The position numbers and the translations under genes were made by a program. Of a stretch of 64,000 bases of DNA, positions 23,977 through 57,876 are shown in pieces. The stretch spans positions 7,246,808 to 7,310,807 of the forward strand of contig JASKMD010000031.1 in assembly GCA_030144725.1 (NCBI GenBank), given 5' to 3'. Under the pieces are notes generated by a model. It made no database searches. It was not told where the DNA came from and saw nothing but the letters and a program-made list of their open reading frames with translations. The DNA is from Haematococcus lacustris (taxonomy: Eukaryota; Chlorophyta; Chlorophyceae; Chlamydomonadales; Haematococcaceae). Positions within the stretch are counted from its first letter, which is position 1; every line of letters starts with the position of its first letter.

Positions 23977-25725
23977 TATATATACATATACATGTATACT
24001 TGTATGCCTACCACCTACACTATTGCCTGACCTCTGTGACAGGGTCTACGATCTAGAGTTGGCATGACCTGCATGCACTAATGTGAGCTGATGACAGCGC
24101 GAATTGGGGGGGGGCACACACTACTGTGCATCAACAACATGCTGCTGCTGCTGCTGCTGGGCCTTGGGTGGCCAGTCTTGCAGCCGCTTGTAACCCAGCT
24201 TGATACTTTGTACTGTGCCTCAGCAGGCTGCCCTTGGCTGGCATAGCTGCCTGGTCTGGCCACCAGCATAGCTCCAGTGGGCGCCACATGCTCTCCCCAA
24301 CGCGCTGCATGTTCAGCGCTGCATTGCAGTCCCTGTCCAGCCACCTGCCTGGCTGTGGGGCTGGCTTTGCCCTTGCAGCCTCGCCCTTGGCCCTGCGTTT
24401 ACGCTCACTGGATCTCTGCCACTTGCTGCAGCAGTGCTCCCACCTTGCATGTCTGTGCCCTGCCTCACACGCCCCACCTCCTCCTGCACCTGGACCCTCA
24501 GAGCAGCAGCCAGCAAGCCCAACAAGCTGCAGAGCAAGCTTATCATCAGTCGCACTCCCCTTGCCTCCCCCTGCCTCCCCTTGCCCCTGCCCTTCAACCT
24601 CCCCCTGCCTCCCCTGCCTCCCCTGCCTCCCCTGCCTCCCCCTGCCTTTCAACCTCTTTGCCCAACCCCTGCCCCCTGCCCTACTGCCTCACAGGTGCTG
24701 GCCCAAAGGGACCGTGGGCTGCGGCGCCTACACCTGGCCACCCCAGCCCCCTCCCCGTCCAGCAGCAGCAGCAGCACCATCGCCCCACTGGGAGGTTACA
24801 CAGCGCTTGGGAGCAGCCACCGCCGCCTGAGCCGCGCCCTGCCCCTGCCCACCTACATCCCGCTGCACGCCCCTGCCACTGGTGCCAGGCCCGGCAGCGC
24901 CATCCCCACCGCCTTTGGCCACCAGCAGGGCGGTGCTGGGCGGATGGAGGGGCTGGCAGGGGGCCCAGGGGGAGGGGAGGAGGAGGGGGAGACACTGGAC
25001 CAGTGGGTGCTGCGGCGGACCCAGGAATTCAGTGTCGCCACACGCGCCCAGCCTCATCGCTGCCAGCTGTGGCTGGACTATGCGGCATGGCAGGACCAGG
25101 CAGCCAGGCTGGTGGGCCGCAGGTGGGTGTGGAGGGCAGCTGGCTGCTGCGACGGCTGGCTGGAGAAGGGTGGAGGAACAAGGACAGAGAACCCCACCCC
25201 ACCCCACCCCACCCCACCCCACCCCACCCCACCCCACCCCACCCCACCCCACCCCACCCCACCCCACCCCACCCCACCCCACCCCACCCCACCCCACCCC
25301 ACCCCACCCCACCCCACCCCACCCCACCCCACCCCACCCCACCCCGTTCTCGTTCTGCAGGCCTGCCCGCCAGGGTGGTGGAGCTGGTTTGGACGCGGCT
25401 GCCGTGGCTGAGAAGAAGGTGGCAATTCTGGAGCATGGCCTGCAGCTAAACCCAGGTGGGGTAGGTCCTCAGCACACCAACCTTGCCCACCCACTACCGC
25501 CCACTTGCTTGCCCGCCCGCCCGCCCGCCCTCCGCCACTAGCCTGCCCCACCTGATCACGGCCCAGCTGCAGGCCCCTGGTGAGCCCCGGTGCTTCCCAC
25601 TGCCGCCTGTCTTCAGGGGAGGTGCGGCTGCTGACGGCACTGCTGGAGGCGGCAGGGGCGGGTGGCCTGCTGGAAGGACCTGCCCTGGCCAGCCGCTGGG
25701 AGGCCGCCATTCGCCGCTGGCAAGC

Positions 25726-34602: not shown

Positions 34603-35582
34603 TCAACTCCGCCTGGCAGGGGTAAGCTTGCCCTTGGACTGCTGTTTGCCAGCTTTGGCTTTGGGTATGGGAGGGGCTGACACAGGCGGCAGTGTGGTCT
34701 GCAGGTGCCGGGAGATGGCAGTGAAGGGGTTGCCTGCAAACACAGGGTGGCTGAGCACGGCCTGCATGCGCTGTGTTTCGCTGGCGGCCAGGCTGAGGCG
34801 CGTCTTGCTGCTCTTCACGCCCTGACCAAATGGCCGCCGGGACACCTCTGCATGCAGTCAGCCACACCCACACAACCCTCCATGAGCGCATGGGACATTG
34901 GAATGCAACCATGGCCCTGCTCACCAGCCTGACAAAGCACTACGGTGCCACGGTGTACCGGCCTCTGCTTATGGCAGATGATGGTGGGTTCACATCGGTA
35001 CAACTGTCAACCTGGTATTGCTGCATGGCATGACTGAGCAGACAGTGTGGTGTGGCTGCTGGGCATACCATGCACAAATGATTGCCTTAAGCTGTACAGC
35101 TCACACATACAGGATGTGGCTGCACAGCTGAACAGAGGGCTGTCATGGATGCCATGTGCCATGTGCTATGACAAGCGTCATCATCTACTCACGTTGCGGG
35201 GCTGCTTGCGTTGCTTCCAAAGCTGTGGACAGGGAGCTCAAGCTGTCCAGCGCCTTGCTGCTGCTCTGCACCTTCTTTCGCCGCTTCTGCACCCCAGCCT
35301 TCTGGAGCTTGGGAGCATGTGCGACGACTCGCTCCAGAAAGGATACCTGTGTGCGTGTCGAAGGGGGTGGCAGCAGGTACTGGAAGACTGTACAACCCCC
35401 TTCCATTTTTTCATTAGGGCGATGGTGCATGAACCTACTTTCTGGGCTATCTTGCGTTGCAAGTGCTTAGGTGGCGCTGGGCCGGCGCTGGGTGCGGAGG
35501 GCTTAGAGGCTGACACATCCTTGTCGGCCCGGAGCGCCGCCTTGAGGTACCGTTGCTTGCCTCCAACCTTGGCTTTCGCCAT
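34603..35582 (-). CDS. SLX9: SLX9-like ribosome biogenesis protein
   Basis: Three exons, 35582-35439, 35346-35193 and 34847-34603, join in phase to 180 residues. The N-terminus is basic (MAKAKVGGKQRYLKAALRAD). The middle has a helix VSFLERVVAHAPKLQKAG followed by KRRKKVQ and LDSLSSLSTALEA. The C-terminal part reads TQRMQAVLSHPVFAGNP and FTAISRHLQTTLPP. This follows the SLX9 pattern: a basic linker, a [SD]LSSL block, then an E/T-x-vL-x-xP-x-F-x-x-(N/S)P-x-x-x-I-x-x-HL end. SLX9 proteins act in pre-40S maturation and export. The assignment rests on pattern memory. The exon 3 acceptor (ATGCAG before 34847) was chosen because it keeps phase. Confidence 0.68.
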
Positions 35583-35956
35583 ATTGAGTAAATCCGCAAC
35601 CTTATAAAGTAGAAAACAGCAGCTTGAAGTAAGTATACTCTCTCTGCCTTCAGGTGGCGCTGTGCCACTCCGTTATGTTTGCACCGTTAAAGTTGTCAGT
35701 CACAAAATACAATGCAACCATGACAATGTCCCTGCCTGCCTGGCATGACTCACATGCACGAAGTAAGTAGGGTTTTTATTTTGATGATAATGCTTTGATC
35801 AGAACCAACAAAACTCATTCAACAAGGAACAACATGTCGGCCTGTGGGTAATCTCACTCAGCTACTACAAACACGGGACAGACCACTGGGCTCCTCAGCA
35901 AAACTAACAGCATTATGCTTTGTAAGGCTGACAGCCTGTGTGAAACTACTAGGGCC
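35583..35956. repeat. SLX9-like 5' flank grading into Fanzor-family 3' tail
   Basis: 35583-35800 is the upstream flank of the SLX9-like gene with no recognisable motif. From 35805 the sequence matches 40740-40960 (AACAAGGAACAACATGTCGG, GACAGACCACTGGGCTCCTC) with an internal deletion of about 65 bp. It is the 3' tail of Fanzor copy A. Confidence 0.6.
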
Positions 35957-36892
35957 TTATGCATTGTTGCGGGCCCGACCATCAATGCCCCGCCGGTACT
36001 CAGCAGCCCGGTGCAACCACTGCCTGCCTTTGGGCAGCCGGTCATTGACCCGCTTATAGCGCTGCTGGTACTCCTTGCCGATGGGGGGCAAAGCCTCAAG
36101 GTCATCCCACCGGCACAGCTCTATGGGGCGCTGCCTGCTCTCCCCGATGCGCTGCAAGTTCAGGCACCCGTTGGTGTCCCGGTCCAGCCACCTGCCCCCT
36201 GGGGGGGCCCGGGGTGGTGGGGCTGGGCCAGGTGCTGCAGGGAGGGGCTGGGCCTGGGCTGGGGGAGCGGGTGGTGGGGCCTGGGCGGGGGGGGCCTGGG
36301 CTGGTGGAGGGGGAGGTGGGGCCTGGGCTGGGGCAGGGGCAGGGGGGTCCTGGGCTGGGGCTGGGGGGGGGGCCTGGACAGGGGCAGGGGGAGGTGGAGC
36401 CTGGGCAGGGGGAGGGGGGGGGGGGCTGGGCAGGCGGAGGGGGTCCCTGGGCAGGGGCAGGGGGGCCCTGGGCTGGGGCAGGGGGCGGAGGGTTGGGCGG
36501 CACCTGATGGCACCACGACAGGCCCCGCACATACTTCGCATGCCGCAGGCTCCAGGCTGGGCGCACCAGCCGCGGGTTGACCTGGCCTGCTGGGGGTACC
36601 CAGTCTGCTGGCCTGGGCTGGTTAGGTGGCAGGTGCAGCTCACAAGGCTGGCGGGCATGCACTGAGGAGCTGACACGGCTGGTGCGGAACTCATCCACGA
36701 TCACCAGCCTGTCAGGCCTGGGATCTGTGCTGGGCCTGCTGGGCTGCTCCACCACCTTGCGAAACCCCGCCCGCACCGCCCCCGCCTTCCACCCACCCTG
36801 GCTGAAGTTGCCTGCTCCCAAGAACACAGCCACTCCCCTATCCTGGTGGTAGTGGTGGCGTGACACCCACTTCATCCCATTCACCACCTGCA

Positions 36893-37160
36893 GGTCAGGG
36901 TCAGGGTCAGGGTCAGGGTCAGGGTCAGGGTCAGGGTCAGGGTCAGGGTCAGGGTCAGGGTCAGGGTCAGGGTCAGGGTCAGGGTCAGGGTCAGGGTCAG
37001 GGTCAGGGTCAGGGTCAGGGTCAGGGTCAGGTCAGGTCAGGTCAGGTCAGGTCAGGTCAGGTCAGGTCAGGTCAGGTCAGGTCAGGTCAGGTCAGGTCAG
37101 GTCAGGTCAGGTCAGGTCAGGTCAGGTCAGGTCAGGTCAGGTCAGGTCAGGTCAGGTCAG
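36893..37160. repeat. (TCAGGG)n and (TCAGG)n minisatellite in Fanzor intron
   Basis: About 135 bp of the 6-mer TCAGGG followed by about 130 bp of the 5-mer GTCAG fill the intron 36888-37214. The 6-mer resembles but is not a telomere repeat. Splice sites flank it (GTATGA and CTGCAG on the minus strand). Confidence 0.93.
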
Positions 37161-38044
37161 GGTCAGGGTCAAGGTCAGGTCAGATCAGGGTCAGGGTCAA
37201 GGTCAGGGTCATACCTTCTTGCAGAACGCCTCAATAACACGCTCCTGGGCATGGTGCAGCGCCAACCGCTGCCTGCGCCAGCGTGGCTTGAGGTACTCCT
37301 CCCATAGCGCGTCCCAGGTGGCCTTGAGGGCCAGGACGTGGGCATGGAGGCCGCCCAGGGTGGTGCCAGCTGGGGTGGCAGCTGCCAGCTGCAGCAGCTG
37401 TGGCTGAATGGCAGCTGACCAACGGGTTGTGTTCTGCTTGGCTTTTGTAAGCCCGCTGTCATGCTTGAGCTGCCCCTTGCTCAGCTCCCACTCCCACTGC
37501 CTTAGCACCCGACCTGTGACTTGGTCCCGCTGTGCATGCCCGGCCTTGATGGCCTGGGTGACACCTGGGTCCACCCCAACAGCAATGTGGGTGGTGGGGT
37601 CGTAGTCGCTGGTGGCTGTGAGCTTACGCCCTATGAAGGGCAGCTCCACGGGCTCGGTGACTGCCTGGCTGCGGACAAAGTGAACTGAGATGCTGACCCC
37701 GTCTGTCTCTACCCTGCGCGCAAACTCCCAACCGCTGTTTTGTAGCTGACTGTACTGGATAAACTTTTGCCAATGGGGCAGGCTGTCTGCCTCAAGCTGG
37801 GACCTTGTGAGGGTGGTGATGCCCAGGTCAGTCAACACCCCATGCAGCACCCTGTCATCAATGACGAAGTGGCGAGCCCGCACCCCCACCATGGGGAGCA
37901 TGGTGAAGGGGCGTGGGCAGGTGTCATGGGCTGCCTGCCAGCCCTCTAGGCTGCGGTTGACGAACAGGGCATAGCGCACCAGTCTAGGCGCCCTAGCACT
38001 AGCTGGGGGAACTGCTTCTTCATGGTCCTACTGAACCCCTCCTC

Positions 38045-38676
38045 CACTACCCCTCATCCCCTCATCCCCCCCACCCCTACCTTCCCTCCTTCCCTCTGGA
38101 GCCTGGTTTGCATGGCTGCCCTTGATGCGATGGACTTTGGCCGTCGCCGTCTTTGGGCTCTCACCCATCACCCCACCACTCAAGCGACCGCTCCTACCAC
38201 CCTTTCCCCCATTTCTGCAGCCAGCCAGCTTGCTATCTCTACCTTTTGGCTTCACCTACAAGACTTCACCCTAGCCCATCCCAACCCTCCTGGCTGGAAC
38301 CTCCCCCATCCCCATCCCTTCATCTCTACTCAAGACGGATCCCTTAGTGTCACTTTCCCGGTTACTCCTCCTACTCCCTCTGACCCTTAACGTGTTTCAC
38401 TCCCCTCTCCTTCCTAGCCCTCCTAGCTTTTGCGTCCTTACCAGCCCTCCAACCTTTTGCGCCCCTTGCTCCTCCGCTTCTCTGACTTCTCCGCTTCTCG
38501 AGGTCTCTCACACGCTCCCTTTAGCTCCCTTCCCCTTCCTTCTCTGAGTTCTTTCTCTCCTAGGTAGTTCCCCTTCTTTTTCCCTTTCTCTCTGTTCTCT
38601 CCTAAGTCTTTTACCTTTGGAGGTTGGCTTGTATCCACCCGAGCCCTACCTCCTTAGTGTAACAACTACTACTACC
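38045..38676 (+). repeat. dispersed repeat 'X', copy 2, inside Fanzor copy A
   Basis: An uninterrupted version of the element split at 727-3945. An open frame of about 115 codons (to 38390) includes WALTHHPTTQATAPTT and ISTFWLHLQDF but no known domain. The right end, at CTACTACTACC, abuts Fanzor coding sequence. Comparison with copy 1 proves the hAT insertion site. Confidence 0.75.
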
Positions 38677-38803
38677 CCAACCGCCTTGCACCACCAACGG
38701 ATGAACCGCCCTGGGTGCCTGTAGAACTCTTGGATGCTGGTGATGATGGTGGTGGCGTTGGCATTGAGGGAGTTGCCGTCCCCTGTCAGATGCTCCTCGT
38801 CCA

Positions 38804-39042
38804 CACTCCTACAAATTAATCCCTGCGTTCTTCCCTGCGCTTTTGACCAACCTTGTCCGATCGGACTGAAAATTTGATAGATGGTGTTTTGCAAAAAATA
38901 AAACATATTATTGTTTGAAAATATTTCTCAAAAAACATTATGTTTTATTTTCTGCAAAACACCATCTATCAAATTTTCAGTCCGATCGGACAAGGTTGGT
39001 CAAAAGCGCAGGGAAGAACGCAGGGATTAATTTGTAGGAGTG
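38804..39042. mobile_element. 239-bp foldback MITE in a Fanzor exon
   Basis: Two arms of about 104 bp are almost perfect inverse copies (CACTCCTACAAATTAATCCC on the left, its inverse on the right), with a loop of about 30 bp. It splits the Fanzor exon between residues QQLHS and VDEEHLT. RNA from it would form a long hairpin and might feed small-RNA pathways (inference). Confidence 0.88.
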
Positions 39043-39839
39043 CAGCTGCTGGAGCATGGCCACCGGCCAGGCAGTGCTGGGCTGCTCAAAGGCAGCCACC
39101 TCACCGGGCAGCAGCCTGATGCCGTGGTGGTGGGGGCCACGCATGAGGTGCTCAATCACGCTGGCTCTAGTGAGCAGCTCCATGGCGTCCCTGATCTGTG
39201 CCAGCAGCTGTGGGTCCCAGATACCCAGCTGCACTGGGGGAGGCAGCTGGGCTGGGGCGGCTGCTGTGCGGGGGGAGCTGCGAGTGGGAATGCGGGGGTG
39301 GGCATAGGGAGGGTGGGCTGGGTCAGGTGGGGGAGGGGGACCTGGGGCTGGACCTGCTGCTGCTGGGAACCCTGGAGTGGGCTGACCTAGGAAGGACTGG
39401 AGCAACACTGTCAGGCTCATGACTGCTGCCAGGACACACTGCTTGCTGCCCATGGTCATACGCTTGTTGACCTCTGCCACAACTGCGTCTACCTCAGCTG
39501 GGCTGAGGTCAGGCTGGGCTGCCTCCACAAGACAACGCAGAGCTGCCTTGATGACCTGGCGCCTCTCTGCAATTACTACCTTGACAGCCTGCCCCTGCCC
39601 CTGGACTTGTTGCCCACTGCCACTGGCACCTGCAGACACGGGAAAGCACAGCACACGCACGGCAGGATTTGATGCACGGAGTCGCAATGTCGCGTGGCAC
39701 ACACTGCGTCGCGTCGTCAGTTAGCTTCGGGGGAGTCTAGCCTGTCGTTGAGCATCTCGGCTTACCGGCTGCACTCCGCGTGGGAGAGACGGGGCGCTTG
39801 CGTTTCGCCCTCGGGGGCATCTCAGGGATTTAGTTACAT

Positions 39840-40600
39840 TATCCAAGCGGAGTGGCTGTGTTGGGGTGTGCATCAGGTTGGCATCTAACCGGAGCGCCGG
39901 CAACCGGAGTGGGGCGGAAGTGAGGTCCATTACATATCAATTAATCAATAGCTATTTGTCTCTGTAGGTCTCAGACTACAGATAATGCAGCTCCTACCCA
40001 TAACGCTCTGATCAGGCGCGAATCAGAGGTCCGGAACTTTCCGACGAGGTCAGGGTAATCCATGCCCCTAGCATGCCCCTAGCTTCCAAAGGGCACTTCC
40101 AACGACCGTCACCAAATTATATAAGATGTGTGCTAGGGGAGGGGTGGCTGCTGCTGCTGCCCTGGGCTGGTGAGCAGGGCAGAGGGACAAGGCAGGGTGC
40201 TGCTGCTGCTGCTGCAGCCTTAGGCTGATGAGCAGGGCAGAGGACAAGGCTGGGGGCTGCTGCTGTCTCTGTCTTTGTGTGATGATGAATGTGAGTGGTG
40301 AAGGGAGTATCAAGGGGGAGGTGCTCATGCTGCAGTTCTAGGCTAGTGGGCGAGTCTGGGAGGGGGTGGAGTCCTGGCTGCTGCATTGCCACCCTCTTTT
40401 GCCGCTTCTTTTCTGCACTCTTTCCAGGCCTTTCTGGGCAGTTGGCCTGCAGGGAAGAACATGTTGTCATGATGATGCGCTAGGATGGGGCTGCTACACC
40501 AAGCCCACCTTCTTCTTTGGCCGTAACAGGAGTGATTCCAGCCCTCGGGCTCCTCACTACTAAGCTGTGTCAACATGAACATGGCCGCGAGCAACTCCTA
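39840..40600. repeat. repeat-rich spacer, no gene recognised
   Basis: The spacer includes the upstream flank of Fanzor copy A (CATTACATATCAATTAAT, shared with 51965 and 56991). It also has a block TTTGTCTC...AGATAATGCAGCTCC shared with 42505-42560, and CTGCTGCTG-rich repeats at 40148-40265. No supported gene. Confidence 0.5.
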
Positions 40601-40738
40601 TTCTTGGCTGCGGAATCAGGACACCAGCACAGCTCCAGTGGGCGCCACTCGGCCTCCCCAACGTGTTGCATGTTCAGTTGCTGCGTTGCGATGGCTGTCT
40701 ACCCACCTGCCTGGCTGTGGTGCTGCGTTGGCCTTTCA
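40600..40738 (-). pseudogene. Fanzor-like RuvC-III fragment
   Basis: The minus strand reads PQPGRWVDSHRNAAT, a decayed version of the DRDxNAA motif (both Asp/Arg positions altered). It is followed by the conserved CGGGTGGCGCCCACTGGAGC-type segment. About 140 bp, abutting the tail of copy C. Confidence 0.6.
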
Positions 40739-40739
40739 G

Positions 40740-41745
40740 AACCAACAAAACTCATTCAACAAGGAACAACATGTCGGCCTGTGGGTAATCTCACTCAGCT
40801 ACTACAAACATGTTGTAGCATCCTCGGTCGCACCCTTGATGACTGCAAACCCCACTCTGGTGGCACTTTCCCGGGACAGACCACTGGGCTCCTCATCAAA
40901 ACTCAAAACAGCATTATGCTTTGTAAGGCTGACAGCCTGTGTGAAAGTACTAGGGCCTTATGCATTGTTGCGGGCCCGACCATCAATGCCCCGCCGGTAC
41001 TCAGCAGCCCGGCGCAACCACTGCCTGCCTTTGGGCAGCCGGTCATTGACCCGCTTATAGCGCTGCTGGTACTCCTTGCCAATGGGGGGCAAAGCCTCAA
41101 GGTCATCCCACCGGCACAGCTCTATGGGGCGCTGCCTGCTCTCCCCGATGCGCTGCAAGTTCAGGCACCCGTTGGTGTCCCGGTCCAGCCACCTGCCCCC
41201 TGGGGGGGCCCGGGGTGGTGGGGTTGGGCCAGGTGCTGCAGGGAGGGGCTGGGCCTGGGCTGGGGGAGCGGGTGGTGGGGCCTGGGCGGGGGGGGCCTGG
41301 GCTGGTGGAGGGGGAGGTGGGGCCTGGGCTGGGGCAGGGGCAGGGGGGTCCTGGGCTGGGGCTGGGGGGGGGGCCTGGGCAGGGGCAGGGGGAGGTGGAG
41401 CCTGGGCAGGGGGAGGGGGGGGGGGGCTGGGCAGGCGGAGGGGGTCCCTGGGCAGGGGCAGGGGGGCCCTGGGCTGGGGCAGGGGGCGGAGGGTTGGGCG
41501 GCACCTGATGGCACCACGACAGGCCCCGCACATACTTCGCATGCCGCAGGCTCCAGGCTGGGCGCACCAGCCGCGGGTTGACCTGGCCTGCTGGGGGTAC
41601 CCAGTCTGCTGGCCTGGGCTGGTTAGGTGGCAGGTGCAGCTCACAAGGCTGGCGGGCATGCACTGAGGAGCTCACAAGGCTGGCGGGCATGCACTGAGGA
41701 CACCAGGCCCTCAACCTTGAGCCTTCATTGCAGTCGAACACACTA
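40740..41745 (-). pseudogene. Fanzor-like copy C (C-terminal third only)
   Basis: 40874-41661 duplicates 35877-36660 almost perfectly (constant offset 5001 over most of the length). It includes RuvC-III DRDTNGCLNL, the Pro-rich region and the same frame break, and WCHQV. It ends at the HARQPCELHLPP segment, so RuvC-I and II are absent. A 31-bp segment with GGCTGGCGGGCATGCACTGA is doubled at 41637-41698. The shared frame break shows that the parent was already broken when it was copied. Confidence 0.8.
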
Positions 41746-41935
41746 ATTGTGGACCACTACAAAACAGTGTTTTTCTGTGTGGTGTTCCCATCGCATGGCA
41801 TGCTCGTGGCCTATACATGGCATACACATGGTCATGGTCGCCTACCACCTGCAGCATTGCCTGACCCAGAGGGCTACACCGTAGAGTTGGCATGACAAAA
41901 CATGCACTAATGACATGGCATGACAAAACATGCAC
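41737..41935 (-). repeat. Fanzor-family 3' tail, copy at 41.7 kb
   Basis: Matches 47030-47215: GAACACACTAATTGTGGA, ACAGTGTTT, CCTATACATGGCATACACAT, CACCGTAGAGTTGGCATGAC. The repetition of this tail at several places suggests a defined element end. Confidence 0.7.
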
Positions 41936-41939
41936 TAAC

Positions 41940-42118
41940 GACCGTCACCAAATTATGTATACTCTTGCACTTCCAAAGGGCACTTCTAGGGGGCACTTCC
42001 AAAGGGCACTTCCAACGACCGTCACCAAATTATGTATACTCTTGCACTTCCAAAGGGCACTTCTAAAGGGCACTTCCAAAGGGCACTTCCAACGACCGTC
42101 ACCAAATTATGTAAGAAG
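41940..42118. repeat. GGGCACTTCCAA 12-mer repeats in ~87-bp blocks
   Basis: Repeats of CACTTCCAAAGGG and of AACGACCGTCACCAAATTATG alternate. Related copies occur at 40085-40125 and 48372-48425. Function unknown. Confidence 0.85.
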
Positions 42119-42119
42119 C

Positions 42120-42247
42120 TCTGGTCAGGACACCAGCACAGCTCCAGTGGGCGTCACTTGGCCTCCCCAACGCGTTGCATGTCCAGTTGCTGCGTTACGA
42201 TCCCTGTCTAGCCACCTGCCTGGCTGCGGTGCTGCTTTGGCCTTTTT
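42120..42247 (-). pseudogene. Fanzor-like RuvC-III fragment
   Basis: The minus strand encodes [15 protein letters not shown], keeping the catalytic DRDxNAA pattern, then degenerates. About 130 bp between simple repeats and an opposite-strand fragment. Confidence 0.7.
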
Positions 42248-42296
42248 AGACGGACAAGACGAAGGACCGGACACCAGACCTGACCTGTGTATCATT

Positions 42297-43010
42297 TGAA
42301 GGTGGTGAATGGAATGAAGTGGTGTCAAGGCAACACAAAAAGTCCGGGTGAGGGGGGTGGAGGTGTTTCTGCTTCAGCCGGGGTGGGTGGGGGGCCAAGG
42401 CGGTGCAGAAGGTGGGTCGCAAGGTGGTGGAGCAGCCTAGCAGGCCCAGCACAGATCCCAGGCCTGACAGGCTGGTGATTGTGGATGAGTTCCACACCAC
42501 CAATGTCAGCTATTTGTCTCAGACACACAGTTCGGACTCCAGATAATGCAGCTCCTACCTATTAGCAGGGGACCTATGTGCTGTGCATGCACCCCCTTTA
42601 TTTTTGGTAAGCTGCACCTGCCCAAGGACCGGCCTAGGCCCTGGAGCTGGAACACACGGTCGCTGCGCCAGCCTGGAGCCAGTGGCATGTTGTGTCCGTG
42701 CGTGGCCTGATGTGGTGCAATGAGGTGCTGCCCGACCCCCCTACCCCTGCCCAAGAGCCCCCTCTCCCTACCCAGGTTCCCCTCCCCCTGCCCAGCCCAC
42801 ACCTGCCGCACCTGGCTCAATGCGCCCACCCCAAGCCCCCCCATGAGGCTGGTGGCTGGACAGGGACATCAACTTCAGCGCATCGAGGAGAGTGCGCAGC
42901 ATCACCTGGAGCTGTTCAGCTGGTAGGGCCTAAAGGCTCTGTCTCCTGCTGGTGAGGAGTACCAGCAAGGCTACGAGCTGGTCAATGACCGGCTGCCCAG
43001 GGGTCAAGTC
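42297..43010 (+). pseudogene. Fanzor-like copy E, decayed, plus strand
   Basis: It starts with VVNGMKW as in copy A exon 36887. After frame breaks it reads VVEQPSRPSTDP and LVIVDEFHTTNVS (RuvC-II). An insert at about 42505-42640 follows. The rest reads SVRGLMWCNEVLPDP and a damaged WLDRDIN...RIEESAQHHLELFSW (RuvC-III). Several indels make it non-functional. The WCxxV pattern matches the other copies. Confidence 0.75.
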
Positions 43011-43059
43011 ATCAAGGGTGAGACCGACGAGGCTACAGTTGCGAACTACTTTATACCCG

Positions 43060-43225
43060 TTACCTAGGGCACAGGGGCTAGGGCTACAGCCCAGCCTGAC
43101 CCGCTAGGGCTAGGGTGTGGGGCTATAGCCCAGCCTGTTGCATGCTGACCCACTAGGGCTAGGGTGTGGGGCTACTGCCCAGCCTGTTGCATGCTGACCC
43201 ACTAGGGCTGGGGTGTGGGGCTATG
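43060..43225. repeat. ~57-bp tandem repeat
   Basis: Three imperfect units, each with CACTAGGGCTAGGGTGTGGG and CCCAGCCTGTTGCATGCTGA. Confidence 0.88.
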
Positions 43226-43289
43226 TTGGATATTTAGCAACCAGGCTGGCAACCATGTAGCAACCAGGCTGGCAACCATGTCAGAGGGG

Positions 43290-43719
43290 AGGCGGCTGGT
43301 CATACACGGGCAGCCGGCCAAGGCGGGGTGCTTGCTTTGGCCAAGGCAGCAGAATGGGTGGCTGCAGGCTGCAGCAGAATGGGTGGACGCAAGTCTGAAT
43401 GCTCCAAGGCAGATGATGATATATGCCGCGACTGCCAGCAGCGGCAGGAGGACCACGACTGTATGAGCGAGATTCGGTGCCCCATGTGACGTGGTCAGGT
43501 GATAAGGCCACGACAATTGACAATGTCAATTATATTATTTTGATGCGAGATTAATGGGGAGGGAGGCTTGATTATTTCTATGCACGAAGACGTTCTCAAA
43601 ACTAACTTTCGACGTACTTTGGCCACCGGGGAAGTTGAAACAATAAAAAATATGGCTCGGGAATAATATTTCAATTATAGTTTTCGAGGCCTCGGGAATC
43701 AAAAGGGAGAGTACGGTAT
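43290..43719. mobile_element. TIR element 'P', 5'-truncated copy
   Basis: The right end (GGGAGAGTACGGTA) and the adjacent AATTATAGTTTTCGAGGCCTCGGGAATC segment match the right end of 27250-28272. The left TIR is missing. It lies upstream of the retinoblastoma-related gene. Confidence 0.6.
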
Positions 43720-44081
43720 ACTAAAAGTAATAAAAAATTCCTGTTTGGATGTCTTTTATTACTCTGAGTAATACGTCTTTGGCGAACCGCCCAGCACTGG
43801 TTGCAATGTAGCTGAGTGAGACTACCCGCAGGCAACACCTTGTTCCATGTCGGACAAGTTGATGTTGAGCTGTATAAGGCAGTGCTCACGGCGTTTTTGT
43901 AAGCTATATGTGTGGAGCAATTGCTACAGGGAGGTGCTCGTTGATCAGTGGGAGCGCCATACAAGAAGTTTGAGAATGGCATGCGGCGCGCCATGTGTGA
44001 CAATTGGCGTTTGACTCGCATTGTTTGACCTCCACGCGCTGATCGCACACGGACGTCCTCCCGTCCTAGCTTATTCCAACC
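43720..44081 (+). promoter_or_regulatory. upstream region of the retinoblastoma-related gene
   Basis: 362 bp between element P and the ATG, presumed to hold the promoter and 5' UTR. Part (43795-43860) is an inverted piece of the GTGGGTAAT/CTCACTCAGC tail repeat. No promoter motif is assigned. Confidence 0.4.
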
Positions 44082-47000
44082 ATGCACGACAGCGAGAATA
44101 TACTTGAAAGTGTCTTGCGGCAGAGTTTAAATATCCTGTGTCCAGGCGTCCATTCAGACCGGGTGCACACAGTATATCGAGACCTTTGCCGTGCGGTCGA
44201 GCAGCATGACAATCAAGCAACGACAGCCGAGGCTGTCTCACTTGTAAGTTGCTACCTTCATTGCTTATCATTCCAGCCATACGCATGTCTATGTAGCTGC
44301 TGTACTTGCAGCAAGATGACGGGGCGGCCGTCCAAGCAGCCCTGCTTTTCGTGACTCGTTGTACCACTCAGCTCCAGAGCGATGTCACTCCAAACAACCA
44401 TGGGCTGCCGATATCGAGAATTGTGGCCATGGCAGGCACCAAGTATGTTGCCCGGATATTGGTTCCATCGTTTTTAAGAGTTCCACAGCAAGTGTGTGCT
44501 GCGACTGCAGTCTCTTTGACTTCTTTCGCGAGCTTCCAGTGGTGTATGGCAAGCTTGCACAATACATTGAGACTAACCAGCTCAGCGTGCAGCAGCTTGA
44601 GGAAGTCAGCAGCGTCAAGGAATGGCAAAAGATGCTGGTCACCCTATCTTTGCTAGCAAAGAAGTACAAGGTGAGGTTGTTGGCTGGCAGGTATCAGGTG
44701 TGTTGAACAATGATGTTATTGTGGCAGCTAGCCTCATGCATGCTTCGTTGCACTGTTCCTCCGTAGGACTTGTTCAGCAGGTATTTATGTCACCTAAAGT
44801 ACAGTAAGGCTACCGCACAGAGGTTTGGCTGGATGCTTTACCTGGTGCTGAAGTCCAAACTGCTACCACGCTTCCCGGACCTCGTCAGGTGAGCATCGAT
44901 GAGTGTATGTACAGCTCTTGCACACTCAGTTGCGAAATTACCTGTTCAAGTATGGTCACCTGAAATATGTGTGCAGTTGCATGGAACTGCTGGTGTGTGT
45001 GATCAACCTGATGGTTGCACACTCGAACAAGCTCCCCCATGGGATGCCTCTAGCTGCAGACAACGTGCTGGACACTCTGACTGTCATCTCAGGTAAGGTA
45101 CTGTGTACTCCTAATCAGCCATCATGCAGTACAGCCTGCATCACCACAGTGAGGTGCTCATTGACTATTGATTGCTGTCCTGCAGATGGCCTGAAAACAA
45201 ACACGGACCAGGTGTTCAGGTTGCAAATGTCAGTCAACACGATAGTGAGCCAGCTGTTATCAGACTGCTTGAAGGGTAGTTCGCAGGAGAATGTGGATCT
45301 GCCAACAGTGAGTGGTCAGTAGATGCTGACCAGGATAGTGCAGCAACATGACCTAGCCAGCTTTGCACAGCTTATCTTTGTCCCAGCCACAACCAAGTGA
45401 TGTGCTATGCAGGGGTTACGTACTCACTGCGTGCAGCTGCCCGGCCTATTGTCTGACCATAAAGCTACCTCCAGCGTTATGAGCTTGCTTGAGAGGGAGT
45501 ATGATGCTGTGTACAGTCACCAAGGCGAGCTCGATGAGCGGGACTTTCTAGCCACAGACATGGCCCGCTTTGCTAGCCCCCGCATGTCCCCAGCTACAGC
45601 CTATAACTCCTCGACTCCTCTCCATCGTGGCGGGCGCAGCAGCATTCCCTCCTTGCAGCAGCTTGCCCCAAGTGAAATGCTGCGTAACTGCTCAGAACCT
45701 GCCTTGCAGCGCTGGCCTCTGAGTGCCTGGCCTTGCTCTCAATCTACATCTTCAGCAGCTGGGACGCTGCCCTGTGGCACTGTTAGCCCTGCTGCAGTCC
45801 CTGCAGTGCCGGGGTTGACTGCCTGGGCAGCATCTGCAAGACGGCTGCCAGCACCAGCCAGTGAAGCCAGTCCAGTGCTGCAGCCTGTGGGTCATAGTGC
45901 ACCCTGGACCCAACCCTTGCAGGCATCTGTTGGTGGGTGTGACACACCACCGACTGGGGCAGCATTATGCAGCCCTGCGCCATGCCACACTGGCAGCACT
46001 CGGTGGCAGTTAAATACCCAAAACCTCACTGGGCTTGCTTTCCAGACAAATAGGCTGGGTCCTGGCACCTTCAGCACTGTGCCTTCCCCAACCCCTTCAC
46101 CAGGTGGTCCTGCTCAGCAGCTTTGCCTGCTCGCTACAGCAAAGCAGCCGCAGGCCGCACTTCTCCAAGTTCAGGCAGCATCGCCTACCCCCCAGGTTGC
46201 CTGTGCACCTGAACATGCCGTGCCCTGTCCTCCAACTCCAGGCAGACAGGCAGCAGGCCCAGCGTACTCTCCACTGCCTTCTATGCACCTGGGCAGCAGT
46301 CAGCCTTCCATTGTGACCCCTATCACAGAGACCATGGGTTCTGCCGCCTGGTTGCGAAGCCTAACGCAACCTTTACCCTCGGGACCCTCCGCCACCCTGA
46401 AGGGGCTTCTTGCAGCCTGCCAGCCAGACCCTAGCCCCGTGATCGCTGGGCGCATAGTGGAAATGGTTGGATTGGTGCTGCCAGACGAGCAGCCTGCTCA
46501 GCTTCTGGCATTCCCTGTCATCCATCAAACAGCTGCCCAGGAGCGACGTGCAGAAGTGAGTGCCATGAGAAAATATAAGCAGGCATGGCCATTGCTGTAT
46601 GGCCAGTTGGAGCAAGATATAACAATGCAGCCATTTAGTGTGAGGTTGTAGAACCGCTTCAGGATTTAAATTTGTAGAAGCGCTGTTCAGTGCCCTGGCC
46701 TTATGCTCTGCAGGCCACCAAGCTATACTACCTGGTGCTGGAGCGTGTGATTACTGAAGAATGTAAGAGGACTGGACACACCCAGCTAGCAAGACCATCT
46801 TCAGCTGTGGTGCCCCCGCAGTGCCAGGATGCGCCAACAGAGCTCAGCACTGAAGGCAATACTCAGTCAGACTTGACTGCAGCTGCCAGAGTTGCGTACT
46901 GTGCGCTGCTCAACTCCACCAACTTCCACAAGGGTCTTGTGGCGTGCTGCTTGGAAGTCGTCATTGCCTCCTACAGGTAGGGTGTGGCTCTGACAGCACC

Positions 47001-50000
47001 TTGGCCCTCAGCCTTGAGCCTTCATTGCAATCGAACACACTAATTGTGGATCACTACGAAACAGTGTTTATTTATGTGTGGTGTTCCCATCGCACTGCAT
47101 GCTCATGGCCTATACATGGCATACACATGGTCATGGTCGCCTACCACCTGCAGCATTGCCTGACCCAGAGGGCTACACCGTAGAGTTGGCATGACACAAC
47201 ATGCACTAATTGAAAGCTGAGGACAGCTCAAAGTAGGGGCACACACTACTGTGCCACAGCAGGCTGCTGCTGCTGCTGGGCCTTGGGTGGCTTGTCTCGC
47301 AGCCGCTTGTAGCCCAGGCCTGGGTACTCCTTGCCCTTGGCTGGCAGAGCTCCCTGCTCTGGCCACCAGCACAGCTCCAGTGGGCGCCACTTGCTCTCCC
47401 CAATGCGCTGCATGTTCAGCGCTGCATTGCAGTCCCTGTCCAGCCACCTGCCTGGCTGCGGTGCTGGCTTGGCTTTGGCTGCCTTGCCCTTGCCCTTTGT
47501 GGGCTCAGCTGCCGGCTCAGCCTTGGTGCGCTTGCTGCGCTTGGCTGGCATGGGAGTGCTGGGCCCAGGCTCTGAGGCTGCTGCCGGTGTGGCTGCCTGG
47601 CTGCTGCGTGGGGCCTGTGGGGGCTTGCGTGGGGCTACTACCGGGCACCACATCATGCCCCGCACTGGCTGGTCACGCTGATGGCTCCAGGCTGGGCGCA
47701 GCAGGCGCTGTTCCACCTGCTCTGCTGGGGGCTTCCAGCCTGCAGGCCTGGTAGCCCTGCGCTTGTTCAGCTGCCTCTCACAGGGCTGCTGGCCATTCAC
47801 TGTTGAGCTGACCCGGGTGGTGCGGTGCTCATCCACAAGCACCACCCTGCCCCGCCGCTGGTCTGTGCCCCTGGGCCAGCCCCTGGGCCCGCAGCTGGAA
47901 ATGTGCCTTCAGCTTGCGTCGGGTTTTCTTGCACCCGCAAAGCACGGCGCCATCCGGGACTTTGATGACCTGCGGCCAAGAAACATTGACAGGCAACATT
48001 GACAGGCCGGGAAACAATGCGGGGACACCAACAGTGCGGGGGCATACAAGGCGGTATGCGCCCCCGTGCGCACCTGTCGTCGCTGGGTTTTCCATTCAGT
48101 TCTTCGCTCCTCGCGTTGTTTGCCTGGAGGGGTGCGAGGGCCTGCGCTGGCATGAACAGTAGCGATGTGAGCAGCGCGGAGTTCACCGGACTGCACAGTT
48201 GCAGCGGACCACACCACGACTACGACGAACCTTGTTTTCGCGGGCTTTCAATTGGATGCGGCACTGGATCCGCGCTACTGGGCCGCTTCCTCGGAGGCAT
48301 TGCGCCTCTAAGCTCATATCAGCTCACACCTGCTAATACCTACTTATACCCAGGAGGCGATGTCACTCACTCTTGCACTTCCAAAGGGCACTTCTAAAGG
48401 GCACTTCCGAAGGGCACTTCCAAACTCCAAAAGACACCCAAGCATGTGCTCACCGTTGCTGGCTCTGATAGCACACACAGTACGTGGGTAACAGTGCATG
48501 AAGACACCACTCATCATGATTGAATCTGTACCTGGAACACTTGGCATCCAATGTGTACGCAGGATGGTGTCCGCTGCCTTCCCCAAGGTTCTAGATGCCC
48601 TTCAGCTGCAAGCTTTTGACCTTTCGAAGATTGTACAACCCTTCGTCAAGCACATGCCTGGCCTGCCGCTGTGAGTCACTCCCCTGCCTATTACTCATCT
48701 GCTCTGGTGTATACAGCCTGCTTTGTCCGCACAGCAGTTCTCTTCAGGCCCTTGCACCCAAGCCGCGAGCCAACCCTTCTTCATGTTGTGGCTGTGTTGC
48801 AGGGAACTGAAGCGACATTTGTTTTGGATTGAGGAGCGCATCATTGAGTCCCTGGCCTGGGAGCGAGGCTCACGGCTGTACGATGTCCTGGCAGCCACCC
48901 ATGTTAGCTCCAACTCAGCTGTCCTCCAACGCAACGCTGCATGCAAACCGAGCATGCCTCAGCTGTCTCAAGGCCATGCGGTTGCAGCTCAGGAGGCACC
49001 CACAGCACCAGCGCAGGGTGATTGTGAGGCTAAGGCCTCCCATGCCCTCTCAATGGGTCGAATGCAAATCTCCAGCCCGGACCATCAGGAGGCAAATGGT
49101 CAGACTACAATGCAGCCCCCTTCACAACAGGCAACAGTGGGCGGGCCGCCAGGGTCACTCACTCTGCAGCCCGAGTGCAGCAGCCTGGGCGGCACCCTGT
49201 TGGCAGGCGCGCCAGCCTCTCCAAAACGCACCCCAGACCTTGCATCCTTTGTTTCTCCAGCCAAGCGAGGTTGGTGACATGCCTGTTGCTTGGATCAACA
49301 GCCACCTGGCATACATCACAGCCACCACCACCTGCCAGTTCTATCTCCGTTTCGCCCCTGTTTGCTACATTGTCTTGCTTGCCTAGATTGCCCCCTAGAG
49401 ACCAAACAGCCCCCACTTCTCTCACTAGGGCCTCCACTTGAATTGGACCACTAGGGAGCACTAGTGGGACTACTCAAGATGGTGTTCAGGCCTGCCCGAG
49501 CCCTGGCCGAGTTCAAACCTTGTCTTGCTGTGCCGTCCTTCGGAGGCAGCCAGTCTTAAATGGCCAGGCATTTCGGGTGCCTACTGCCCTGCAGTCCGCT
49601 CACATGAAGGCACCGTATCCAATCTCGCAGCTCAAAGCAGCCAAGCCCAAGGCGGTGCAGTGTCAGCACCCTCAGACTCTGGAGCCCAGGGGCTGAGCCA
49701 TGCCACTTGCAGCCTCGGGCAGCGGAGTGCTGCAGCCTGTGACACTCTGCCACCACAGCCAGCAAAGGCTTCTGGCTGGCATGCCTCCCCTGACACACCT
49801 CCAACCTGCTGTGCACTGCAGCCGCTGCCAGCAGGCGTTGGTCAGCCCCTTACTGCAGCTGCTCTGGCAGCCATGCCCCCTAGCGCAGCGTCTGCTCTGA
49901 GCGTGACGCACGACTTCTTGCGCAAGGCCCTGAAGCTTGCCTGGTTCAGGCTGGGTTGGCTGTGCCAAGCATTGAGCGGCCTCCCCCTCAGCCCAGCTGA

Positions 50001-51964: not shown

Positions 51965-52850
51965 GATATGTAATGGACCTCACTTCCGCCCCACTCCGGT
52001 TGCCGGCGCTCCGGTTAGATGCCAACCTGATGCACACCCCAACACAGCCACTCCGCTTGGATAATGTAACTAAATCCCTGAGATGCCCCCGAGGGCGAAA
52101 CGCAAGCGCCCCGTCTCTCCCACTCGGAGTGCAGCCGGTAAGCCGAGATGCTCAACGACAGGCTAGACTCCCCCGAAGCTAACTGACGACGCGACGCAGT
52201 GTGCGCCACGCGACATTGCGACTCCGTGCATCAAATCCTGCCGTGCGTGTGCTGTGCTTTCCCGTGTCTGCAGCTGCCAGTGGCAGTGGGCAGCAAGTCC
52301 AGGGGCAGGGGCAGCCTGTCAAGGTAGTAATTGCAGAGAGGCGCCAGGTCATCAAGGCAGCTCTGCGTGGTCTTGTGGAGGCAGCCCAGCCTGACCTCAG
52401 CCCAGCTGAGGTAGACGCAGTTGTGGCAGAGGTCAACAAGCGTATGACCATGGGCAGCAAGCAGTGTGTCCTGGCAGCAGTCATGAGCCTGACAGTGTTG
52501 CTCCTGTCCTTCCTAGGTCAGCCCACTCCAGGGTTCCCAGCAGCAGCAGGTCCAGCCCCAGGTCCCCCTCCCCCACCTGACCCAGCCCACCCTCCCTATG
52601 CCCACCCCCGCATTCCCACACGCATCTCCCCCCGCACAGCAGCCGCCCCAGCCCAGCTGCCTCCCCCAGTGCAGCTGGGTATCTGGGATCCACAGCTGCT
52701 GGCACAGATCAGGGACGCCATGGAGCTGATTGCCAAGGCCAGCGTGATTGAGCACATGATGCGTGGCCCCCACCACCACGGCATCAGGCTGCTGCCCGGT
52801 GAGGTGGCTGCCTTTGAGCAGCCCAGCAGTGCCTGGCCGGTGGTTGGGAG
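51965..52850 (+). pseudogene. detached Fanzor N-terminal module, copy 1
   Basis: Same upstream flank (GATATGTAATGGACCTCACT) and exon 1 (MPPRAKRKRPVSPTRSAA, 52082-52136) as Fanzor copy A. A GT-AG intron follows, then exon 2 from 52272 with VIKAALRGLVEAAQPDLSP, the Pro-rich linker and LLPGEVAAFEQP. The homology stops at AWPV and a stop follows at 52873. No RuvC part follows, so it is a truncated element, or at most a short DNA-binding-like protein of about 215 residues. Confidence 0.72.
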
Positions 52851-56990: not shown

Positions 56991-57876
56991 GATATGTAAT
57001 GGACCTCACTTCCGCCCCACTCCGGTTGCCGGCGCTCCGGTTAGATGCCAACCTGATGCACACCCCAACACAGCCACTCCGCTTGGATAATGTAACTAAA
57101 TCCCTGAGATGCCCCCGAGGGCGAAACGCAAGCGCCCCGTCTCTCCCACTCGGAGTGCAGCCGGTAAGCCGAGATGCTCAACGACAGGCTAGACTCCCCC
57201 GAAGCTAACTGACGACGCGACGCAGTGTGCGCCACGCGACATTGCGACTCCGTGCATCAAATCCTGCCGTGCGTGTGCTGTGCTTTCCCGTGTCTGCAGC
57301 TGCCAGTGGCAGTGGGCAGCAAGTCCAGGGGCAGGGGCAGCCTGTCAAGGTAGTAATTGCAGAGAGGCGCCAGGTCATCAAGGCAGCTCTGCGTGGTCTT
57401 GTGGAGGCAGCCCAGCCTGACCTCAGCCCAGCTGAGGTAGACGCAGTTGTGGCAGAGGTCAACAAGCGTATGACCATGGGCAGCAAGCAGTGTGTCCTGG
57501 CAGCAGTCATGAGCCTGACAGTGTTGCTCCTGTCCTTCCTAGGTCAGCCCACTCCAGGGTTCCCAGCAGCAGCAGGTCCAGCCCCAGGTCCCCCTCCCCC
57601 ACCTGACCCAGCCCACCCTCCCTATGCCCACCCCCGCATTCCCACACGCATCTCCCCCCGCACAGCAGCCGCCCCAGCCCAGCTGCCTCCCCCAGTGCAG
57701 CTGGGTATCTGGGATCCACAGCTGCTGGCACAGATCAGGGACGCCATGGAGCTGATTGCCAAGGCCAGCGTGATTGAGCACATGATGCGTGGCCCCCACC
57801 ACCACGGCATCAGGCTGCTGCCCGGTGAGGTGGCTGCCTTTGAGCAGCCCAGCAGTGCCTGGCCGGTGGTTGGGAG
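56991..57876 (+). pseudogene. detached Fanzor N-terminal module, copy 2
   Basis: Identical in layout to 51965-52850 (offset 5026). Exon 1 is at 57108-57162 and exon 2 from 57298. It ends at the same AWPV break, so the truncation predates the duplication. Confidence 0.72.

Follow-up and report, generated by a model that had tools for sequence, protein, structure and literature searches.

The closest known relatives of the gene considered here are the Fanzor1 proteins of Spizellomyces punctatus (SpuFz1, a model for RNA-guided DNA cutting; PMC10432273), Parasitella parasitica (PpFz1) and Guillardia theta (GtFz1). These proteins share a RuvC fold, a DPG-type RuvC-I block, an alternative glutamate in a VDEFRTS-like RuvC-II block, a VHGL..C motif before RuvC-III and four ribbon cysteines arranged as C-x2-C and C-x4-C. 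Bacterial TnpB (ISDra2) and Cas12f also have a RuvC core with a TNB domain inserted before RuvC-III, there with a CCCC zinc finger (PMC10097598), and in TnpB the glutamate typically lies about 50 residues upstream of the finger (PMC10711439). Fanzor1s of the green algae Chlamydomonas reinhardtii and Volvox (CRe and VCa) have many exons and belong to abundant elements, those of Chlamydomonas riding in Helitron2-like elements (PMC3627910). We analyzed a minus-strand gene, copy A, at 35957-39820 of a 64-kb stretch of the Haematococcus lacustris genome (contig JASKMD010000031.1, 7246808-7310807; hereafter the window), which, like CRe and VCa, represents a many-exon gene of an abundant green algal element. 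Its family has the RuvC fold, block order, DPG, alternative glutamate and VHGL..C-like motif of the solved Fanzor1s and the inserted TNB of TnpB and Cas12f, but of the four ribbon cysteines it keeps only the third, alongside two that are new. In all, the family is probably best explained as a Fanzor1-derived RuvC nuclease carried in an abundant transposon, likely RNA-guided, whose TNB ribbon lost cysteines 1, 2 and 4 and in which two new cysteines are nearly fixed.

A preliminary description of the window, made from its letters alone, had noted three RuvC blocks in order behind a basic N-terminus and had proposed that three of four ribbon cysteines were gone in the same way across divergent copies. 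We located the blocks of copy A at GVDPG (RuvC-I, aspartate codon 37571-37569), VDEFRTS (RuvC-II, catalytic glutamate codon 36692-36690) and LDRDTN (RuvC-III, second aspartate codon 36178-36176), all on the minus strand and preceded by the basic, nuclear-signal-like N-terminus MPPRAKRKRPVSPTRSAAG. In the ribbon, serine stands in the place of the first cysteine (C1; 36671-36669) and valine in that of the second (C2; 36662-36660), the third (C3; 36512-36510) is kept and the fourth (C4) is absent. The same loss is family-wide, as a survey of 228 algal relatives with 216 RuvC-II sites (in 195 proteins) and 202 downstream C3/C4 sites makes plain. The catalytic glutamate is retained in 213/216 sites; seven residues after it, the C1 place holds serine in 207/216 and cysteine in one (P0151, in which a deletion puts the reading out of step), and ten residues after it the C2 place holds valine, leucine or methionine in 205/216 and cysteine in one. 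Downstream, C3 is cysteine in 191 of the 202 sites and a C4 cysteine at C3+3 occurs in none (0/202). The second ribbon pair of Fanzors had been taken to be CxxC, which proved mistaken for the solved Fanzor1s (C-x4-C, CTNPNC in SpuFz1 and similar in PpFz1 and GtFz1); in 190 of 191 algal sites there is no cysteine within eight residues after C3, a range that covers the C-x4-C spacing too. Read as DNA, 28/28 genomic copies have the glutamate, the serine, the valine, a cysteine at Glu+16 and C3, and the altered ribbon is common to three subfamilies that are ∼40% identical to one another. One subfamily III protein, P0120, reads VNDFRTS, with aspartate for the catalytic glutamate, a single case among the 216 sites.

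As a control, we applied the same reading to 120 relatives of a Fanzor1 from a viral contig, 82-95% identical to the query, and found the motif in 117, with C1 and C2 kept in 117/117 and the cysteine pair of the second half in 117/117; this set is narrow and therefore checks the method rather than surveying Fanzor1. No family copy keeping all four cysteines, a finding that would have spoken against a lineage-wide change, was found among the algal proteins or in whole-genome searches, which could miss diverged or intron-split genes. With the profile PF07282, the whole genome gave five matches, none over the cut-off (matches were found in 9 of 14 control genomes, over the cut-off in 6), and no four-cysteine ribbon appeared in the translations examined for these five. 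Between RuvC-II and RuvC-III, the algal family lacks the C4 zinc finger that is included in the TnpB/Fanzor motif of PMC3627910, published in 2013. We nevertheless keep it within the Fanzor1-derived lineage because, according to PMC10711439, many TnpBs and Fanzors, rather than all, contain the finger. The regular expressions of that study require CxxC...CxxC, so published patterns of this kind would miss the algal family.

The kinship with Fanzor proposed in the preliminary description is supported by fold, fingerprint and sequence comparison. In fold searches of two predicted structures, SpuFz1 was the top match for both (best match in the PDB, E 1.2e-5), over the RuvC core only. One algal member matches a bona fide Fanzor1 in BLASTP with an E of 4e-7, and the matches to Fanzor1 are colinear over ETDGVS, VGVDPG and VDEFRTS, and in P0121 also over VxGLxxC and RDxN. 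The DPG fingerprint is present, with P487 and G488 (P0004 numbering) invariant in a 23-sequence alignment and all three residues invariant in a 59-sequence one. In the family alignment the aspartates of DPG and DRD vary little if at all, and the alternative glutamate, six residues before the ribbon, aligns with the glutamate of DEFRTS/DEYKTS in solved and viral Fanzor1s.

Profile searches were less clear, and several results weigh against the assignment. With PF07282, 6 of 16 single members gave a match at E≤10, the best at 0.039, and none passed the cut-off; among seven chosen proteins, four passed, all of them multi-copy. The check by hidden Markov model profile suggested earlier thus succeeded for the four multi-copy proteins and failed for single members, and because the latter stay below the cut-off the profile question is answered mainly by structure. 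Structure prediction was likewise informative for only part of the protein: the RuvC core is Fanzor1-like, but the ribbon region is not resolved and overall confidence is low (mean predicted local distance difference test scores of 45.6 and 55.2 for the two models). Fold matches had low template modelling scores and high root-mean-square deviations, a designed protein took ranks 2-4 in one search, and VIA-align gave CasPhi nearly the score of SpuFz1. A profile search against PDB sequences returned two unrelated matches only, with E above 2, and hhalign gave a probability as low as 6.5%. The weak single-sequence profile matches, the lack of a PDB sequence match and the hhalign result would fit another RuvC-fold nuclease family that had converged on the order DPG...DEFRTS...RDxN. 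We regard such convergence as very unlikely given the colinear Fanzor1 matches, the fold searches and the outcome of searching the whole genome with a Fanzor1 of viral origin, where three of four weak matches were the algal family (the fourth was not recognised). Pfam matches such as Bacillus_HBL and RecA_dep_nuc were set aside, all being under their own cut-offs. From its sequence and the modelled core, then, the gene product appears to belong to a Fanzor1-derived, TnpB/Cas12-like RuvC nuclease lineage that fails the 2013 C4 motif.

The family is abundant in the 308-Mb genome searched. A search with 129 residues of copy A returned 7,829 first-look places (unverified), and the 150 that were scored are 89-100% identical, 147 of them without a stop; one with 150 residues of subfamily III returned 14,104 (also unverified), with 150 scored places 91-100% identical and 142 without a stop. 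These open-frame rates are biased upward because the scored copies are the best-scoring ones. Substitution patterns, expressed as the ratio of non-synonymous to synonymous differences (pN/pS), are less biased and indicate purifying selection: 0.29 for exon 5 (28 copies), 0.32 across 15 copies, 12 of them picked for their greater divergence, and 0.30 for exon 6 (26 of 27 matched copies, L025 being dropped for stops and a 28th, L034, having no match). A value of 0.25 for exon 6, obtained with a motif filter that passed 16 of the 27, was set aside. For the ribbon codons by themselves the ratio is 0.29, equal to that of the RuvC half, and therefore the altered ribbon is maintained. Copy A and several other copies in the window are broken, as would be expected if the family were a large set of old relics of one defective master with functionless changes; that account is highly improbable in view of a pN/pS of about 0.3 in three tests and the open frames of the best-scoring copies. 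The earlier suggestion of a lineage-specific change, as opposed to decay of one copy, is thereby upheld, with three subfamilies sharing the loss.

Among the matches listed for the copy A protein at E≤0.001 (best 120 of 231), all are from Haematococcus lacustris, and the same holds for those listed in a second search (best 120 of 367). Relatives were also searched for in prokaryotic genomes and viral contigs, and none was confirmed there. In several annotated Haematococcus proteins (P0032, P0071, P0073, P0130, P0176 and others), pieces of the family are joined to other Pfam domains, either through errors of gene prediction or as genuine fusions.

Alongside the three losses, the family has gained cysteines. 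In P0001, an 858-residue member to which the pieces of copy A are 84-100% identical, residue 676 (QPCE, at Glu+16) is cysteine in 59/59 rows of the 59-sequence alignment, residue 720 (the old C3) in all 52 rows that cover it, and residue 807 (RPxELC) in 98% of 57 rows. Among 215 matches to RPxEL in the algal proteins (184 proteins), cysteine comes next in 211. Where RPxELC lies in the algal proteins, the Fanzor1 control reads RPxxLSR (106 matches in 120 proteins, with a pattern that demands serine), and SpuFz1 (RPEVFSRS) and PpFz1 (RPPLFSRE) have serine at the place corresponding to Cys 807. The new cysteines may have been recruited beside the old C3 into a rebuilt TNB metal site linking the ribbon with the segment that follows RuvC-III, a proposal we make tentatively and consider rather doubtful. 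It is weakened by the lack of any conserved histidine near Cys 676, 720 or 807 in the family alignment, so that a fourth metal ligand is not evident. A simple loss has an even chance of being correct: TNB zinc would be dispensable, neither new cysteine would take part in metal binding and the protein would be a Fanzor whose TNB does without zinc. It would account for there being three conserved cysteines only and no histidine nearby, and TNB domains among Cas12 relatives are reported to share little sequence and to adopt distinct structures (PMC10097598). Chance retention alone, however, does not explain the near-fixation of Cys 676 and 807 in subfamilies so diverged.

The ends of the element were compared across loci. 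All 16 subfamily I loci compared have a common 3′ end, GTTTTGTTGG or a near match, followed by 1-2 bases and CTG, and in 8 of the 16 the 5′ starts coincide as well, to within about ten bases; the comparison is biased towards the 3′ end because loci were chosen by their 3′ exon. The common ends and the 89-100% identity of scored copies are those of a multi-copy mobile element. Inspection by eye of 8 five-prime and 16 three-prime ends revealed neither terminal inverted repeats nor target duplications, a pattern reminiscent of the Helitron passengers of Chlamydomonas (PMC3627910). Evidence from the 3′ end weakens the case for a guide RNA: neither single-sequence folding (z of −0.24 and 0.16) nor alignment folding (z of −0.84) gave a significant fold, and the region has no overall constraint compared with fourfold sites (p of 0.080 versus 0.075). 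Double changes occur in 2 of 34 pairs over the last 130 alignment columns, and 25-nt blocks are uneven, with divergence from 0.00 to 0.13. With no Rfam match within 35000-48500 either, a folded omega RNA at the 3′ end is unsupported. That no guide RNA was found and that a defining structural element is altered would both suit a protein that no longer cuts DNA, such as a RuvC-like DNA- or RNA-binding passenger serving some other purpose, perhaps to regulate transposition. The near-complete retention of the catalytic glutamate and of the DPG and DRD aspartates makes this unlikely.

Under the Fanzor1-derived nuclease reading, the change would have occurred in the common ancestor of the three subfamilies, with ribbon cysteine 1 becoming serine, cysteine 2 a hydrophobic residue and cysteine 4 a non-cysteine. 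Cys 676 and 807 would have become nearly fixed and the old Cys 720 would have stayed. By analogy with SpuFz1, the D-E-D RuvC site would probably still cut DNA, guided by RNA from the 3′ end of the element. The part of the TNB in DNA loading could be played either without zinc or through a rewired site of Cys 676, 720 and 807.

Copy A itself is a broken copy of this abundant transposon gene, and intact relatives are present elsewhere in the genome. It is broken because of a palindromic insertion, the missing counterpart of P0001 281-339, a frame change in a proline-rich repeat and a loss of ∼61 nt at the 3′ end. The host element runs on the minus strand from ∼39943 to 35805. Exon 1 (39764-39820) carries the start codon and basic N-terminus and is identical to P0001 1-19, its putative splice site being the GT that follows. 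Exon 2 (39037-39636) covers the N-terminal region, matching P0001 from residue 17, and is interrupted by the insertion (38804-39042), a 239-bp palindrome of two 118-nt arms, 96% complementary and 3 nt apart. With its ends CACTCC...GGAGTG, it looks like a foldback miniature inverted-repeat transposable element. Coding pieces follow at 38682-38816 (P0001 210-254) and 37979-38044 (P0001 259-280), after which the missing part would lie. Exon 4, an open frame at 37215-38027, contains the end of a WED-like region and RuvC-I and is 97% identical to P0001 340-595. A putative GT...AG intron (36889-37214), almost wholly made of TGACC/TGACCC repeats, separates it from exon 5 (36501-36887), which holds RuvC-II with its glutamate and the altered ribbon; similar repeat tracts precede the ribbon exon in several other genomic copies. 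A proline-rich repeat within which the frame shifts (36221-36493) links the ribbon to RuvC-III. This linker, also seen at 41222-41494, is a minisatellite of variable length; subfamily III is without it, and most of its members share one fixed spacing of 75 residues. Exon 6 (35957-36202) encodes LDRDTN, RPIELC (new cysteine codon 36115-36113) and the stop. Beyond it, the 3′ noncoding end (35805-35956), the candidate guide-RNA site, finishes in GTTTTGTTGG and is ∼61 nt shorter than in most copies.

Other copies in the window are partial. Copy B (40961-41690, minus strand), a direct repeat of copy A 5001 bp apart, retains the ribbon tail and RuvC-III, reading VSSSV..WCHQV, and has lost the glutamate block. 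The 75-nt 3′ ends of A and B are identical (35799-35873 and 40736-40810) despite the loss just upstream in A. Copy C (42298-43007, plus strand) is degenerate, with stops, and reads VDEFHTTNVSY..WCNEV. Copy D of subfamily II (47294-47875, minus strand) has VDEHRTTRVSSTVNGQQPCE..WCPVV..DRDCN in one frame, with a ribbon start of TTRVSSTV. There are also a RuvC-III-only copy of subfamily II (24160-24400, minus strand) and two N-terminal-only copies on the plus strand (52083-52842 and 57109-57868), which match each other 5026 bp apart and suggest a recent segmental or tandem duplication. Every copy keeping the region had been said to read TSRVSS or TTRVSS with WCxxV: the loss pattern does recur in A, B, C and D, but copy C reads TTNVSY and the copy at 24160-24400 retains RuvC-III only. 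At 41937-42090, two 77-nt satellite-like units (97% alike) interrupt a subfamily II fragment, and part of them recurs near 48345.

In the literature on Fanzor in green algae and on zinc-finger or cysteine loss, mostly at the level of titles and abstracts, we found no report of this ribbon change. Transposable elements are reported to make up 50.8% of the Haematococcus genome, with Fanzor unmentioned in the corresponding passages of that description (PMC10400597), and the relevant part of PMC12633428 mentions Fanzors in green algae but not the present family. The abundance and divergence of the family amount to a natural mutational series on what the TNB zinc does, and it offers natural nuclease candidates without the canonical zinc site. 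If the metal site has indeed been rebuilt, the family, with its very many copies in one genome, would rank with the most successful Fanzor lineages and represent a naturally altered-ribbon nuclease. More generally, it may show how Fanzor-like enzymes work without the usual zinc ribbon.

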